54,938 bases of DNA. Origin: Gracilaria vermiculophylla (Eukaryota > Rhodophyta > Florideophyceae > Gracilariales > Gracilariaceae). The stretch is taken from contig JAHNZQ020000092.1 of assembly GCA_019155205.2 (NCBI GenBank), forward strand, positions 1,050,110-1,105,047, in the 5' to 3' direction. This document shows, one piece after another, positions 23,606 through 39,431 of this stretch. Position 1 is the stretch's first letter. The number at the start of each line of letters is the position of its first letter. Position numbers and translations under genes: made by a program. Under the pieces are notes generated by a model. That model had not been told where the DNA came from. It made no database searches and saw only the letters and a program-made list of their open reading frames with translations.

Positions 23606-25627
23606 GTTGACAATGTACTAGATACTGCAGTTCGATAATCAATTGATATGCTGGATTCTGGGCTGGAACTGGCTATGGATCAATTGAATTTTGGTGAGAC
23701 ACCCTCTGATGAAAGTGTACTACCTTCTTGTCAAGATTTAGAAGATGATACCAACATCAATGATGTTGTCATGCCTAGTGTGGGTGACAAAATTGAAGTT
23801 TTTTGGCCGATTGATGATCAGTTCTATCCAGGAGTGGTTGGAGACTACGATGACCAGGAAGACAAATATCGTGTAGAATACTTGGATGGTGATGTTGAAA
23901 CCTTGCAACTTCAAGATGAGCATTGGAAGTTCTCTGTTAATGAATCACAATTATCAACAAACAAAGTTCAACTACTTCCAGGCACTGAGCTATCTAGTTC
24001 AGAACGAGATGCCCTTCGTCAGTACTTCAATCATTTCAACACAAAGGAATGTCTTCTTCACCAAGCTCGAGGTATGCCTCAATTTGTCACACAGAATGCC
24101 TACAGCACAGAAGAAAACAACTTCAAGAAGATTGTGAAAGAAGTTCATATTTCTCAAGTTCCCAATAATGCCAATATTATTTCGAGCCATGTTCTCTACA
24201 AAGTCAAAGTTCAAGACGACAACAGTTTGATGATATAGGCAAGAATCGCTCCACATGGAAACAAAGATCGAGAAAGAGATACTATGAAAACTGATTCTGC
24301 CGTATGCCCGCCTCTTGGAATACGTGTTTTGTTGTCGATTGCAAATTTGTTCAAGTGGACTTTGGCCAAGATTGACGTAAAGTCTGCATTTTTGCAGACT
24401 GGAAGTACTGAACGTGACATTTATGTGGTACCTCCGCGTGAATGTAAGAGCAGATCTTTTTACTGGCTCCTGTTAACAGCTGCTTATGGCCTTATGAACG
24501 CTGGTGCGAAGTGGCAAGATCACAGTGACTCATTCTTTTATAAGCTAGGATTCCTGCAGTTATCGTATATTCCACAGTTGTTCTACATGAAAGAAGTCAC
24601 CAGCAACAACATACGAGTTCTTGCTATTAAGGTTGTGGATGACATTCTCCTTGCAGGACCGAGTGAAGAAGTAAAGTATACTGTTCAGAAGATTAATGAA
24701 CGTTTTAAACTGGGTACTATAGTTTATGGTCCTGGCCGGTTCATCTACTATGGTTTGACGATTGTACATAATGAAGATTTTTCAGTTCTCCTTAATGCCG
24801 ACGAGAAGCTGAATACACTAGAACCGTATCATTTGCATCGCTTTCGACGCCGTCAAATTGAAGATCCTTTGAACGCAGTAGAGCTTTCTGCATTTCGATC
24901 CCTGAATGGTTCAATTGGATGGCTTGGAATCGTAGCTAGTCCGTTTTGTTCGTTCTACTCGATTTTTCTGCAGCAACGAAGTGGGAACCCTTGTGTCAGT
25001 GATTTGATTTCTCAAAGTAACAGTCTGAAGGTTTTGAAGAAGCTCGGAAGTTCATCGTTGTTTAAACGTCCCACAACTTCCAAGCCTCAAAGAATTTCTA
25101 TTTTGGTCTTCTCAGATGCAAGTCGTTCTAATGAATGTGAACAGATTGGTTTTATTCTTGGATTGCTCATAGGTGAATTTGAGAAAGATTCTATATTTCA
25201 TGCTCTACACTGGAGTTCGAACAAGTCGAGACGTCCTGTTAAGTCAATCGGAGCTGCGGAAATTCTTGCTGCCGGATATGCAATTGATGAAGCCAAAATT
25301 TTGGCTGGAGCGTACTCAACTATTCTTAACATGGAAATTGACGTTTTGGTTGGTGTCGATTCGAAAGACATTTACGATTCTTTATCAACTTGTCACAGTC
25401 CTGCCGACAAAAGCATTCGTGCAGATGTGGCTGTCATCCGTTACGAGTTTGAAACTCACAATGTCAACCGCATGATCTGGATACCAGGCAGAATTAATCC
25501 CGCCGATCCATTAACCAAGAGAGATATTCCGATGAACAAGGCTGTACAACTAATGTTGTACGAAGGTCAACTTTGTGTAGATTTCGCTCAAGCTCAAGTT
25601 CGTTCATCAGAGAAGTTTCTTCGTTAA
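23606..25627 (+). pseudogene. Copia pol: Tudor-like segment, reverse transcriptase and RNase H, two stops
   Basis: One frame, in register with gag, runs from the gap to TAA 25625-25627. It is interrupted only by TAA at 23636 and TAG at 24236. It holds a Tudor-like stretch (VGDKIEVFWPIDDQFYPGVV, then a YDDQ..YRVEYLDGDVETL repeat), the join KVKVQDDNSLMI-stop-ARIAPHGN where copia has a Lys, RT motifs AKIDVKSAFLQTG, LLLTAAYGLMNAGAKWQ and the active-site Asp pair in VVDDILLAG, and RNase H residues in LVFSDAS, GAAEILAAGYA and VGVDSKD. The active sites look intact, so point stops are the main damage. The stops may be assembly errors. Confidence 0.9.
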
Positions 25628-25857: not shown

Positions 25858-26877
25858 TAACTTTATTTTAATGGTGTTATAGTATAAAAGGTCTGCAGAA
25901 ATGGCACGCTTTTTTAAATGAAATGTTGCTGCCAGTATAGAATTTCACTGTCTCATGAAAATGTTGCATCTTTTTTATACGTTTATTAGATTCAGTGACT
26001 GTGAGTGACTACTTTGGACGTATCCAGCACTTTCTGAGAGCGCAAGGTGTTGAATACGGTTAACGTGCAAAATAGAAGTTGACGGAAAACCTTTTTTAAT
26101 GGGCTAAGGGTATATATATTTCTTGTAAGAACAAATATCCACAGTAATAGAGGAAATGAAACTTATGTTTATTGCTATTATTATTTTCAAAAACAATGAA
26201 TTACAAAAAAAACACCATTATTAAATACATTTATTTTAAAACTGTGTTTAACAAAGGGTTGCTTTTGTCGTCTAAATCATTTTTTTGTTGATAATGTAAC
26301 TTGGTAGGAGATGATTTTTTATTGTCGAGTTGGCTCAAAACTCCATGGTGTCATGGTTATTCTTTTAGGGAAGCATATGAGGCGACTTGTTATTAAATGA
26401 TTACAGATATATCAGTTGTAATATTTTTTAATTTTGAAGTGCATGTAATTTTTTGATGTCTGGGACGTTTTTGGGCCTTACACAATTGAGTAAAGGCCTA
26501 ATGCGACATCCTAAATTTCTGAAGAGCCATTAATACCGCAAATCTCGTTCCCCAATGCAATCCAGATATTTTGCTGTTGGACGAAATTTGTGCTTTAATC
26601 GGGCAGCCAAATCTCCCATACCGTTTCCTGGAGAAGAATTCCGAGATACAGTATGCGGTAGTGTATGGAAGACGAACGAAGTGACATACAATCATAATCG
26701 TCCTCTTTGGGTTTACGGTTGTCGTCGATATCGAGAGCGAGAACGAGAACTGCCATCACTAATAATTGCATCGCTCGCAACAGTGTCGAAAACCAAAACT
26801 TCAAACTGCGAATATTTGCATTTCCCAACTCTAGGATACACTCTAGATTCGTCCTTTCATTCGTGCCTCATCCCAGA
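25858..26877. other. AT-rich boundary between transposons and gene island
   Basis: About 1 kb with no supported gene. Small ORFs near 26500-26830 overlap the region upstream of the lyase gene and show no family motif. The promoter and 5' UTR of the lyase gene must lie in its last few hundred bases. Confidence 0.5.
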
Positions 26878-28389
26878 ATGGCCTTTGCACCACCGATCCC
26901 ATTTGCAAATATAAATCATGCTCGGTCCATATGCCAACGACCCCCGAGCGAGCTGCGAGCTACTTTAAGATCAGACTCACATCCATGTCTGTACTCAATA
27001 CTTGGCTTGGACCACATCAACCCTTCTACAATAACAAAATCTGAGATTCGGAAAGCCTACTTTAGACTCGCAAAGCAGTCTCATCCTGATGCTACTCAGA
27101 CTTCTTCATCTTTTGCATTTGAACAGATATCAAGAGCTTATACGGTACTCAGCGACCCTGAGCTACGCTCTGCCTATGATGAAACTGGTAACCGAGGACT
27201 AGCAGCAATCCAGAGTATAAAACAGCGCGCCGACCATATTCGAGAGAAGTTCGCTTCAGTGTCTGGAGAGCAGCTAGACTTCCTTAGTGATTCAGGTGAG
27301 CTCGTTGGCGGACTTTTGTCGTCTACTTCCGAAGATGAGGAGTTTGATCCCTCCAGCGTCACTCATGAAGATGCCTGTCCACGTTCTGCCGAGGAAGCCA
27401 TTTGGAACATTCAGTTTCATCCGGATAGAAGTGTTCGGTATTACGGCTTATGGTGGATATACAAATTTAAAGTTTCTGTGGCGGAGGCAGCTCTTGTCAA
27501 TGTATTACAAACATCTGACGACCGGACGAGTCTCGGAGGGTATGGTATTCGTCGTCGAGCTGCTCTAGCACTTGGGGCTGTTGCATCGACACCCACAGAA
27601 ACTAATCAAACTGCGCTAATAGCGCTCTCCGATGCACTTCGGAGCTCTGATTATTTCTTGAGATATCGAGCTGCGGAGGCTATAGCTAATATTGCACAAC
27701 GATGTTCTCTTTCTGGTGTACAATTTTCTTTCCCGCAGATTGTCACGGACCAACTGAAAAGAATGTTAGCGAAGGGGCAAAGAGACTTCGCCATTAAGAA
27801 AGAGTTCAAGTCGGGATTTACTCAACAAGAGAGTCTCTTCAACCTTGAAAAGCTAAATCCAGCTCTTCGTGAGAAGCTCGAAATGATATTCAGAGAAAGA
27901 AGAGAAAATGAGGAGCGGAGCAGACGCACTACGATGACCCCGCAGCTTGGAGTGGAAGCTGTGGGATCAAGCTCGGATGAACCGTACGAATGGCTGCTTA
28001 AAGCAGTGGGTTCAATATATTCCAATCAGCCATTTCATCCGGACGATCAGCTACTTGAGATTCTTGAATCATATGCATCTAATTCGATACCGTTAGTACG
28101 TTATGCGGCTCACAAAGCCCTGTTCGCGATAACCGGAGCCGAGCAGCACGCACAGCAAATTGTGAAAGCACTAGAATACGGAGTGGAGCATCACTATTCT
28201 CAAAGGGTACTTATTCGCGATCTTGGTGATTTGGGATACTCGAAAGGAGCGGAAGCTGTAGCGCTTTGCCCAATGGTTGAGAACAGTTTCAAAATCTTAG
28301 CTTTGAAGAATATGCTCGCCAAACAGAAATTTGACCCACGCTGTCTGGAAGTGAGGAACGTACTCTCTCACATGGATTCCCTTCTATGA
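26878..28389 (+). CDS. cpcE-like: J-domain protein fused to a CpcE-type phycobilin lyase, probably plastid-targeted
   Basis: 503 residues from ATG 26878; the open frame extends upstream but has no other ATG. Residues 1-36 (MAFAPPIPF, then basic and hydroxyl-rich) look like a red-algal plastid leader. Residues 37-104 are a J domain with the HPD tripeptide at 69-71, which would stimulate an Hsp70. From 171 to the end come HEAT-like repeats with CpcE signatures: VRYYGLWWIYKF (187-197), GGYGIRRRAALALG (about 220-233), SSDYFLRYRAAEAIANI, EPYEWLLKAVGSI, PLVRYAAHKALFAITG, IRDLGDLGYSKGAEAVA and VENSFKILALKNML. CpcE, normally with CpcF, attaches phycocyanobilin to the alpha subunit of phycocyanin. A charged ~80-residue insert splits the repeat region. 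The lyase identity is strong from sequence; plastid location and chromophore specificity are inferred, and PecE-like activity is an alternative. Confidence 0.85.
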   Translation: MAFAPPIPFANINHARSICQRPPSELRATLRSDSHPCLYSILGLDHINPSTITKSEIRKAYFRLAKQSHPDATQTSSSFAFEQISRAYTVLSDPELRSAYDETGNRGLAAIQSIKQRADHIREKFASVSGEQLDFLSDSGELVGGLLSSTSEDEEFDPSSVTHEDACPRSAEEAIWNIQFHPDRSVRYYGLWWIYKFKVSVAEAALVNVLQTSDDRTSLGGYGIRRRAALALGAVASTPTETNQTALIALSDALRSSDYFLRYRAAEAIANIAQRCSLSGVQFSFPQIVTDQLKRMLAKGQRDFAIKKEFKSGFTQQESLFNLEKLNPALREKLEMIFRERRENEERSRRTTMTPQLGVEAVGSSSDEPYEWLLKAVGSIYSNQPFHPDDQLLEILESYASNSIPLVRYAAHKALFAITGAEQHAQQIVKALEYGVEHHYSQRVLIRDLGDLGYSKGAEAVALCPMVENSFKILALKNMLAKQKFDPRCLEVRNVLSHMDSLL

Positions 28390-33864: not shown

Positions 33865-35874
33865 TTATGCTCCGCCAGCTTTCTTGTCTTTCTCAGGTTC
33901 TTTGTCCGAATCACTGTCAGATTTGGTATCTTCCTCCGTGGTGGAGGACGACTCGGACGCGGCGTCTTTCTGTGCGTTAGCTTCTTGGGAAGCCTTGTAC
34001 ATTGCTTCTCCTATCGACATGGCGGCCTTCGACAATGCTTCCGTCTTCGCCTTGATATCCGACGCTACCGCACCGTCCTTGTCAAGCTCTGATCGCAAAT
34101 CCGTCATCGCAGCCTCAACTTCAGCAATTTGCTCTGCCTTCAGTTTGTCCTTGTGTTCATTAAAGGACTTTTCAGTACTGTAAAGCAAACTATCAGCGTC
34201 ATTTTTCGCCTCAATGGCTTCACGACGATCCTTGTCAGCAGCAGCAAAGGATTCAGCGTTCTTAACCATTTCGTCAATGTCGGCGTCCGACAAACCGCCA
34301 GAGCTTTGGATTCGAATACTTTGTTCTTTGCCAGTGGCCTTGTCGCGCGCAGAGACGTGAAGAATACCATTCGCATCAATGTCAAAGACGACATCAATCT
34401 GCGGAACACCTCTTGGCGCCGGAGGAATGCCCACCAGATCGAATTGACCCAACATCTTGTTATCCACAGCCATCTCTCGTTCACCTTGCAGAACCTTGAT
34501 GCCCACCTGCGTTTGGTTATCCGCAGCAGTCGAAAACACTTGCGACTTCTTTGTTGGAATGGTAGTGTTCCTGTTAATCAGTCTCGTAAACACTCCACCC
34601 AAGGTTTCCAGACCCAGGGACAATGGGGTCACATCCAGCAATAATATGTCTTTCACATCGCCTCGCAACACGCCACCCTGCACAGCGGCGCCCATCGCGA
34701 CTACTTCATCTGGATTGACGCTCTTCGAAGGGTCTCTGCCAAAGAAGTCCTTCACAACTTCCTGTACGCGGGGCACACGAGTCATCCCTCCGACCATGAG
34801 TACTTCACCGATCTCCTTAGTAGAGACACCAGCATCCTTGAGACAATTCTTCATGGGATCTAGTGTGCGCCTAACGAGCGGATCGACAAGGGACTCGTAC
34901 TTGGCGCGTGTGAGTTTCATGTTCATGTGCTTTGGTCCACTGGCATCAGCCGTAATGAAGGGGAGGTTAATGTCAGTTTGCATGGTGGATGACAACTCAA
35001 TCTTTGCCTTTTCAGCGGCTTCCCGCAGTCGTTGCAGAGCAAGACGGTCCTTCGAAAGATCAATCCCCTGATCCTTCTTAAACTCGGAAACAAGATGGTC
35101 AAGGAGAACGTTGTCAAAATCTTCACCTCCGAGATGAGTATCTCCGTTGGTTGCCTTGACCTCAAACACACCACCGGAAATCTCAAGAATACTGACGTCA
35201 AATGTACCACCTCCAAGGTCATAGACGGCAACGATTTTTCCATCAGCTTTCTCCAAACCATACGCCAACGCAGCCGCAGTCGGCTCATTGATGATACGAG
35301 CCACGTCTAAGCCAGCAATCTTACCAGCGTCTTTGGTAGCCTGTCTCTGGGAATCGTTAAAATAAGCCGGAACGGTAATTACGGCATGATTGACCTTCCG
35401 ACCTAGAAAACTTTCGGCGGTCTCTTTCATTTTTTGCAAAACGAAGGCTCCAACCTGACTCGGAGAATATTTCTGGCCACCTGCTTCAACCCAGGCATCG
35501 CCGTTCGGCCCTGGGATAATCTTGTACGGCATGGCGGCAACGTCTGCCTGTGACTCCTTGTCAGAGTAGCGGCGGCCGATAAGCCTCTTAGTCGCAAATA
35601 AAGTATTGGTTGGATTGGTGACGGCCTGCCGACGTGCAGGGATTCCTACGAGCTTCTCGCCATCCTGGGTGAATGCGACAACTGAGGGGGTTGTTCTGAC
35701 TCCCTCCGCGTTCTCGATAACACGCGGGGTCTTCCCTTCCATGACAGCGACACACGAATTGGTAGTGCCGAGGTCAATGCCGATGACATCACCAGAGATT
35801 GCGGAGGACAAGCCCCTGCGCTGCGACACGGAGGCGTGCCGAAGCGCTACGCCGAAGCGGGTCAAAGCGCGCAT
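33865..35874 (-). CDS. HSP70: Mitochondrial Hsp70 (DnaK type)
   Basis: 669 residues from ATG 35874. The frame stays open 60 codons further upstream, but that part is not Hsp70-like and the true leader [20 protein letters not shown], rich in Arg with no acidic residue, starts here. The nucleotide-binding domain opens [11 protein letters not shown] (31-41) and includes [14 protein letters not shown] and [13 protein letters not shown]. The substrate domain has [14 protein letters not shown] and the basic-to-acidic tail ends near DKKAGGA. The family form with [14 protein letters not shown] and RQAVTNP is bacterial DnaK/mitochondrial rather than cytosolic. It drives import and folding of matrix proteins with a J protein and GrpE. 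It is divergent with the MBOAT gene. Confidence 0.95.
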
Positions 35875-36589
35875 GATGAACGGCAGTAGGTTACCGAGCG
35901 GATGAAGACAAAAGTGGGGAGAACTCGCTCGTATCGGAAGACAACGGCTGCAAGAAATAGCGGCCGGCGGGGGCTTGATATCCACAACGAGACCGATATC
36001 GAGCTGGAGGGCGCCGGGGGGGGGGCGACGACGGCGGATCAGAAACGGGATCACGGTGCAGGTGGCACCATCGGCGTCCTGCTAACGCCCACGTGCCACA
36101 ACGCAGCGGACATGCGAGCCACTAAGCGCTTGGCGCGATGCTTCTAGAGCGCAATACCAACCAACAGATGCGCGCAAAGTGTCGACACTTGAGTGCGCAA
36201 GTGCCGCGTGCGCATAGCTGCGCAACGCGTAGGCACACGCCAAGTGTGGCGCGCAGAGTGGCATTCGACGGCGCGCTGCTGCGACGCATCGCGGTACGTC
36301 CGGGCGGCGCGGCGCCACCTGGCGCGCGGATGGTGCGCAGCGCACACGCGATGGCGACGCGCTCCTCGCCCTCAACCCGTCGCGCCTACGCGTCGCGATC
36401 CCATCAAGAATCACATTCGGGTCGTGGTTGGCATCGCACACGCGCCTTCGCGCGTGGCGAGTACTTTGCCTACACAAATTCGTGTCGCGCTCTTGGTGCT
36501 CACACGCCACCTCACTCTCCTCGGTTGCACTCAGCCAAACGGCCGTCGCACCGCACCCCCGCTGTTGCGCTTGCTGCATCCCTCACCCA
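35875..36589. promoter_or_regulatory. Divergent promoter region of HSP70 and the MBOAT gene
   Basis: 715 bp, strongly enriched in CGCG and GCGC words from 36130 on. Long chance ORFs through it reflect base composition. No convincing heat-shock element (repeats of nGAAn) was seen. Confidence 0.5.
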
Positions 36590-38038: not shown

Positions 38039-38684
38039 AGAGTGTGCCGTGCACTCGAACAACTTATTTTTTTGTTCGCATTTGACTGGCTGGCACATTT
38101 GCGTAGTGTTTTTAAGACCTGAGGCATCGTGTCCCCAGGTCCAGGACAAGCTTTTCCGCACCACCTTCAGACTGAACGGCCAACGCTTTTGTTGTTGCGT
38201 TCGGGGTTGGTGGTTGCTCGCCCACGAACCGAACGTAAAGGGGTACCGAGGCACAGCAGTACCGGCCACCCCAGCCACGCCATGGCAGGGCCAATGCGAT
38301 TCTCGAACGCAGGCACGGTCGTAGTGGGCTGAGTCTTCTTGCGTTTGCCATATCTATCCAACGTTCTTGCATTTGTCACATGCAAGTCAAACTCCCGCAG
38401 ATGTTTTGCACAAGGTGTGAACTTGGTTGAAAAGGCTCAAAATATTTAAAAGGACTACGGCAGTCATTGCTCACGTCATACTTCATGTTCTGTCTGTGTC
38501 ACTGAGTACTTCCATCTCATTGGTTACAAGACAAAAAGTTGAACACGTGTGTGTGTCCTGCGCCATGGCAAACTGCTACTGCCTTCGCTTTTGTAGGCCC
38601 TCAAAGAAACCACGCGGCATTGCCCAGCCTCTGCCGGACTAGGATTACGCATGTCGCGGCGCGTTCAATGCGTCGTTGATAACA
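38039..38684. other. Spacer between MBOAT and CLPP
   Basis: About 650 bp with no supported gene. It contains the MBOAT 3' UTR and the CLPP promoter. Confidence 0.5.
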
Positions 38685-39431
38685 ATGATGCGGTCGTTGT
38701 TGAACGTTTCCCGATATTCAACAGCATTTGCACGAAATAGAAAAGATGTTCTCAGGGATAGCGGACATTCCTCACCCGTCGCGTCTGAACGTATCAGACG
38801 CTCTGCGCCGCTTTCTACCCTAGTGCCTATGGTGCTGGAACAGACACCTCGGGGGGAACGCGTGTTTGATATATATTCTCGTCTTCTGAAAGAACACATT
38901 ATTTGCCTGAATGGGACCATTAATGATTCCATGGCTTCCTTAGTTGTTGCGCAATTGCTATTTCTCGAGGCCGAAAATCCTTCCCGAACTATATCGATGT
39001 ACATTAACTCACCTGGTGGTGTTGTTACGGCTGGTCTTGCGATCTATGACACCATGCAGTACGTTGCCCCCGATATAGCTACGCTTTGCGTGGGTCAGGC
39101 TTGTTCCATGGCATCACTTCTGCTTGCGGCTGGCACTCCTGGGGAGCGCCGTGCTCTTCCAAATGCTCGTGTCATGATTCATCAGCCTAGCGGCGGGGCA
39201 CAAGGACAGGCAAGTGACATTGCGATACATGCCACTGAAATACTCAACTTGCGGAAACGGCTGAATGGAATATACGTGAAGCACACAGGAAGAGATTTAA
39301 AGGAGATTGAGAGCAGAATGGAAAGGGATCATTTCATGTCTGCAGAAGAAGCCAACCAATTTGGTTTGATTGATGAGGTTGTTCATCCCCGTTCCAAAGA
39401 GGAAACCTCGGCATCAGCACAGTCTGCTTAA
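38685..39431 (+). CDS. CLPP: ClpP proteolytic subunit, mitochondrial type
   Basis: 248 residues from ATG 38685; a second ATG follows immediately. Residues 1-40 form an Arg-rich, non-acidic leader typical of mitochondrial import, then [27 protein letters not shown] begins the mature enzyme. The catalytic triad is visible: Ser141 in [11 protein letters not shown], His166 in MIHQPSGG and Asp215 in [10 protein letters not shown]. All ClpP landmarks are present and the length is normal. It forms the barrel that degrades unfolded matrix proteins with ClpX. A plastid location is possible but less likely, as plastid clpP is usually plastid-encoded or has a different leader. Confidence 0.93.

Follow-up and report, generated by a model that had tools for sequence, protein, structure and literature searches.

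CpeZ is a member of the E/F family of phycobilin lyases. The accessible part of PMC10254012 gives alpha-Cys84 as the site at which CpcE/F acts and credits CpeZ with chaperone-like help in bilin attachment, and mentions no J domain for CpeZ. Here we describe a gene in a 54,938-nucleotide stretch of DNA from the red alga Gracilaria vermiculophylla (the window, placed on contig C24 of a 44.8-Mb, 27-contig assembly) that encodes a J domain and a CpcE-type lyase half in a single reading frame, and whose product may, like CpeZ, assist bilin attachment in a chaperone-like manner.

The cyanobacterial CpcE (5n3u_A, Nostoc), which forms the alpha subunit of the CpcE/F phycocyanobilin lyase, resembles the Gracilaria protein in its HEAT fold, with which the predicted model of the red-algal protein aligns over 264 of 266 residues, in 35 conserved positions held in common and in having a CpcF-type partner. 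It differs in that the red-algal protein adds a J domain, a leader, a helical insert and an EHH motif, has mostly Gln in place of the His of the GRPHL motif, and scores under the equivalog cut-off. MpeQ (7mch, 7mc4) is by its PDB title a single-chain E/F-type lyase-isomerase, whereas here the F half has a gene of its own and it is a J domain that is fused on. Outside pigment attachment the comparison is with client-dedicated J-domain proteins such as Hsc20, a protein treated in PMC9596805. These, like the Gracilaria protein, join a J domain with HPD to a part that binds one client (putatively in our case), but the client part of the red-algal fusion is an enzyme subunit and its Hsp70 partnership is predicted.

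A J domain and a CpcE-type lyase share one open frame

The frame at 26878-28389 on the forward strand is open from ATG to TGA and encodes 503 amino acids with no need for an intron; the mechanical open reading frame reaches further upstream, to a TTG at 26707. With the ATG at 26878 as start, HPD begins at residue 69, in keeping with residue 71 in the four close relatives P0002, P0003, P0004 and P0006. The whole protein matches at only one place in the assembly, the other 11 of its 12 matches being confined to residues 5-158, the J region. The gene is laid out as follows.

26878..28389, + strand: gene for the J-domain/CpcE-type lyase fusion, 503 aa, stop included; open frame, no intron needed
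26878..26982, + strand: leader, residues 1-35, poorly conserved, probable plastid transit peptide (predicted targeting)
26989..27180, + strand: J domain, residues 38-101 (PF00226, 59.5 bits)
27082..27090, + strand: HPD motif, residues 69-71, invariant in 44/44 aligned proteins
27190..27369, + strand: linker, residues 105-164, with a conserved GEQLDxLSDTGxL-type stretch and then a low-confidence loop at 142-154 (alignment, predicted model)
27388..27711, + strand: first half of the CpcE-type HEAT domain, residues 171-278, with YY..WW and RRRAA (CpcE profile, alignment)
27787..27918, + strand: core of the red-algal insert, residues 304-347; cyanobacterial CpcE has a gap here
27982..28386, + strand: second half of the CpcE-type HEAT domain, residues 369-503, with ENSFK and the D..LL end (CpcE profile, alignment)
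28186..28194, + strand: EHH, residues 437-439, invariant in the red-algal alignment

The Pfam DnaJ profile matches residues 38-101 with an E value of 3.4e-16 (cut-off 27.8 bits) and HEAT_2 matches residues 181-270 (E 2e-9). The top NCBIfam match is CpcE (NF058502, E 2.6e-39), which falls in two stretches with the better one at 171-278, and CpeY is far behind. A sequence search of the PDB likewise returned the Nostoc CpcE first (E 2.9e-24), with J domains next. The open frame together with the Pfam and NCBIfam matches thus confirms the claim of an earlier note, made from the letters of this DNA, that a J domain with HPD and a CpcE-type part lie in one frame. All four CpcE motifs quoted in that note, RYYGLWWIYKF and YEWLLKAVG among them, are present in the frame; their cyanobacterial counterparts are RYYAAWW, GGYPLRRNAARALG, PYEAV and ENSFK. 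The profile search upholds the CpcE-type identity of the C-terminal part, CpcE being the best family at a score under its curated cut-off, and an unrelated HEAT family was rejected on the match of the predicted fold to CpcE. CpeY as an alternative identity was rejected, as its profile matches 26 of the 44 aligned proteins at E 1e-5 with a best E value of 2.4e-10 as opposed to 7.5e-50 for CpcE. NblB was rejected as well, with just 1 of 44 matched at that threshold.

The fusion is conserved among red algae

A search with the lyase part returned 58 proteins, 55 of the red-algal kind and three short ones of the cyanobacterial CpcE type that lack a J domain (P0057-P0059). Named relatives come from Agarophyton chilense, Gracilariopsis chorda, Gracilaria domingensis, Porphyridium purpureum, Galdieria sulphuraria, Pyropia vietnamensis and Cyanidiococcus yangmingshanensis, and a profile search built on six lyase domains (80 proteins) added Galdieria partita. 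From the 55 relatives and the window protein we aligned 44 proteins; P0009, in which HPD is present, stands outside this alignment. All 44, window included, match HEAT_2 as well as DnaJ (at E 1e-5) and CpcE (at E 1e-5 or better). The architecture that the earlier note suggested looking for in other red algae is therefore there, and the presence of both parts in 44/44 excludes chance as the source of the fusion. HPD is absent from the J position in the 11 remaining relatives. By eye, the first residues of 10 of these fall in the last two J helices and those of P0035 in the linker, so that these entries, the Cyanidiococcus one included, seem to be 5'-truncated gene models and not proteins without a J domain. 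Averaged over pairs of aligned proteins, identity is 0.59 and 0.58 for the two lyase halves, 0.47 for the insert region (281-368), 0.42 for the J domain and 0.16 for the leader. We also note that the deposited model of P0006 from Gracilaria domingensis diverges from its relatives past ...LGDLG into an unrelated tail and probably has a mis-annotated 3' end.

None of 80 cyanobacterial CpcE loci has a J domain in the CpcE frame, and none has one in any frame of at least 60 aa in flanks of up to 3 kb on each side; the same J model detects the J domain in 8/8 control loci of the window's own genome. On these 80 loci we rejected a J-CpcE fusion in cyanobacteria. Across 386 genomes of the cyanobacterial phylum, with as a rule three candidates per genome scored, none of the matches listed spans both parts. 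Four of the longest lyase-type frames among them (505, 505, 357 and 344 aa) lack a J domain, a check that covers these four and leaves two of 340 aa and shorter ones outside. In a tree of 18 red-algal and 14 cyanobacterial lyase domains the two sets split with 100/100 support; this tree is midpoint-rooted, includes one untrimmed red-algal row and places Pyropia on a long branch. Because Galdieria, Porphyridium, Pyropia, the Gracilaria group and P0050 (which lies beside Cyanidiococcus in the tree) all carry the J domain, the simplest reading of the sequences is that a single fusion took place ahead of the split of the sampled red algae. Two relative searches, in each of which about 8000 candidates were scored, listed no named cryptophyte or glaucophyte protein among their matches.

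Candidate partner genes in the genome

The earlier note also looked to a separate CpcF partner. A stand-alone CpcF-type gene of 314 aa was indeed found on contig C17 (C17:3609139-3609624); it matches 5n3u_B with an E value of 4.3e-26, has red-algal relatives, and has CpcF as its best family at a score under the cut-off. It lies ~430 kb from the plastid-like stretch of that contig and is apparently nuclear. Judged by name, J-CpcE and CpcF-type proteins occur together in Agarophyton chilense, Gracilaria domingensis, Gracilariopsis chorda, Porphyridium purpureum and Pyropia vietnamensis. The fusion is the only convincing CpcE-type locus found in the assembly. The CpeS family appears at two places, and a CpeY search of the assembly gave nothing better than E 0.034 (C18:1451594-1451875). 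Phycoerythrin is expected in this alga from its kin.

Phycobiliprotein genes lie on C17 and C20 in a plastid-like arrangement beside atp-type genes (named by eye). Among the plastid-type genes on C17 is a DnaK gene of 626 aa, which makes a plastid-type Hsp70 available as a partner. The two stretches, at ~3.00-3.18 Mb of C17 and ~15-103 kb of C20, are similar and not identical in sequence. It seems that a plastid genome has become part of contig C17 by joining, and C20 may represent the plastid of another red alga, either a contaminant or an epiphyte.

Proposed role of the fusion and its alternatives

On balance we favor the reading that this gene encodes the red-algal CpcE, that is, the lyase half of CpcE/CpcF equipped with a working N-terminal J domain that brings plastid Hsp70 to the alpha-subunit client. 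The fusion protein would be imported into the plastid and form a pair there with CpcF, the product of another gene. The HEAT domain of the fusion would bind both bilin and apo-alpha subunit and would act with CpcF to attach phycocyanobilin at alpha-Cys84 of phycocyanin. The J domain would recruit a plastid Hsp70, with the plastid DnaK as the likeliest one, to this client, as apo-subunit or as product, and Hsp70 would then either maintain the alpha subunit in a folded state until its pigment is attached or aid release of the product. We take the J domain as working because HPD is conserved: it is kept in 44/44 proteins while many adjoining positions vary, which argues for function. The interpretation offered in the earlier note, a lyase whose J domain links chromophore attachment to folding in the plastid, is thus supported in part: the fusion and the CpcE-type identity stand, and the placing of the protein in the plastid, its activity as a lyase, its stimulation of Hsp70 and its client are predictions.

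Several observations weigh against this reading. The basic pair of helix II in a bacterial DnaJ (KR in AYKRLARQYHPD) is mostly replaced, residue 62 being basic in 7/44 and residue 63 in 8/44, with R58 kept as Arg or Lys in 42/44 and K66 in 40/44, and coupling to a generic Hsp70 may for that reason be weaker or partner-specific. An early Phe is the rule for red-algal plastid leaders. Among the 38 aligned proteins with an M start and at least 55 residues ahead of HPD, only 25 have Phe within residues 2-9 and 21 are free of acidic residues in the first 25 positions. The CpcE profile score of 135.3 bits lies below the curated equivalog cut-off of 330, as do the scores of Galdieria sulphuraria, Porphyridium, Pyropia and P0050, while the cyanobacterial-type P0057 is above it (424.9); we therefore class the protein as a divergent red-algal branch and not as an equivalog. 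The CpcF-type frame as a whole similarly scores 119.7 bits where the cut-off is 220. In the predicted model the placement of the J domain relative to the lyase is uncertain (pTM 0.64). Finally, 99% of 80 cyanobacterial proteins have His in GRPHL (residue 356), whereas the red-algal proteins have another residue there, Gln in 81% of 43, which suggests that the active site may differ.

The replacement of this His, with the gain of an insert and of EHH, also speaks for the possibility that catalysis has been lost and that the protein is a dedicated J-domain chaperone adaptor for phycobiliproteins, in which the CpcE-type fold just recognizes the alpha subunit; CpeZ is likewise reported to help in a chaperone-like way. 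In our comparison of 43 red-algal proteins (P0006 was dropped for its odd C-terminus) with the 80 cyanobacterial ones, the red-algal set has Arg for Asn at 227 and Leu (95%) for Arg at 230. It also has gained an insert, whose core at 304-347 spans the end of a predicted helix (287-319) and most of the next (328-351) and carries invariant F321, F338, R341 and E345, and an EHH motif, in which E437 and H438 stand opposite a gap in 99% of cyanobacterial CpcE. These changes may reflect a remodeled active site or substrate site, and a purely chaperone-like role has a precedent in the great increase of CpeT activity by CpeZ given in the accessible part of PMC10254012. However, 35 positions have the same residue at ≥95% in both sets, including YY..WW, R226, D258 and ENS.K, and the genome has retained its CpcF-type gene along with what is its sole convincing CpcE-type locus. 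We consequently regard a non-catalytic adaptor as unlikely.

A role in phycobilisome turnover, in which the protein would be a functional analogue of NblB, its J domain bringing in Hsp70/Clp machinery and its lyase domain removing bilin or loosening subunits, strikes us as more doubtful still. The E/F lyase is said in the accessible part of PMC10254012 to have chromophore separation activity as well. Yet the near absence of NblB matches among proteins that all match CpcE (1/44 against 44/44) speaks against such a role, as does the presence in the genome of separate NblB-like HEAT proteins. The latter are two further HEAT proteins with weak NblB/CpcF/CpcE similarity (L021 1054-1938 and L019 973-2340, both on the reverse strand), themselves possible phycobilisome factors.

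We give a similarly small chance to a J domain that acts on its own protein only, helping an imported, insert-bearing HEAT protein to fold or to pair with CpcF, with no role toward a client. A nuclear-encoded lyase would presumably need refolding after import, and J domain and insert are found in the same lineage; the CpcF-type partner, however, appears to be nuclear too, and no DnaJ domain was found in the best 120 of 153 CpcF-type matches. An artefact of gene model or assembly, in which two adjacent genes are read as one, is highly improbable given a frame that is continuous in genomic DNA and 44 aligned proteins, with entries from several sources, that carry both parts in the same order.

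Extending the favored reading of a combined co-chaperone and lyase, we tentatively suggest, as a possibility that falls short of being probable, that before the sampled red algae split J was fused to CpcE once and the active site was remodeled in the same lineage (helical insert, replacement of the His, gain of EHH), leaving red-algal phycobilisomes dependent on the combined protein. Because no CpeY-type lyase was found in the assembly, the fusion may also serve the phycoerythrin alpha subunit.

A J domain with unchanged HPD in 44/44 red-algal CpcE proteins would clearly link the attachment of pigment to the Hsp70 system of the plastid, and cyanobacterial CpcE alone may be a poor substitute for the production of red-algal phycobiliproteins in E. 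coli. The earlier note knew of no described J-domain lyase. We found none either in the literature searched, as judged by titles and the beginnings of abstracts and by the accessible parts of PMC10254012, PMC13193486 and PMC8962646, with subscription papers mostly outside reach; "dnaj" is absent from the main text of PMC13193486 (2026), and the CmNDB1 paper (PMC8962646), in its accessible part, is not related to the fusion. The proteins stand in databases under routine names and are apparently undescribed rather than unknown to databases.

Neighboring genes in the window

A DnaK-type Hsp70 of 729 aa, the best HSP70 match of the assembly, is encoded at 33865-36054 on the reverse strand, ~5.5 kb from the J-lyase gene. 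By eye its leader looks mitochondrial, and as the closeness of the two genes may be chance we set aside a functional link between them. Upstream of the fusion gene by ~1.2 kb lies an RVT_2 reverse transcriptase frame (24284-25627, forward strand), probably the remnant of a copia-type retroelement, and a ClpP-type protease gene is found at 38676-39431 on the forward strand.
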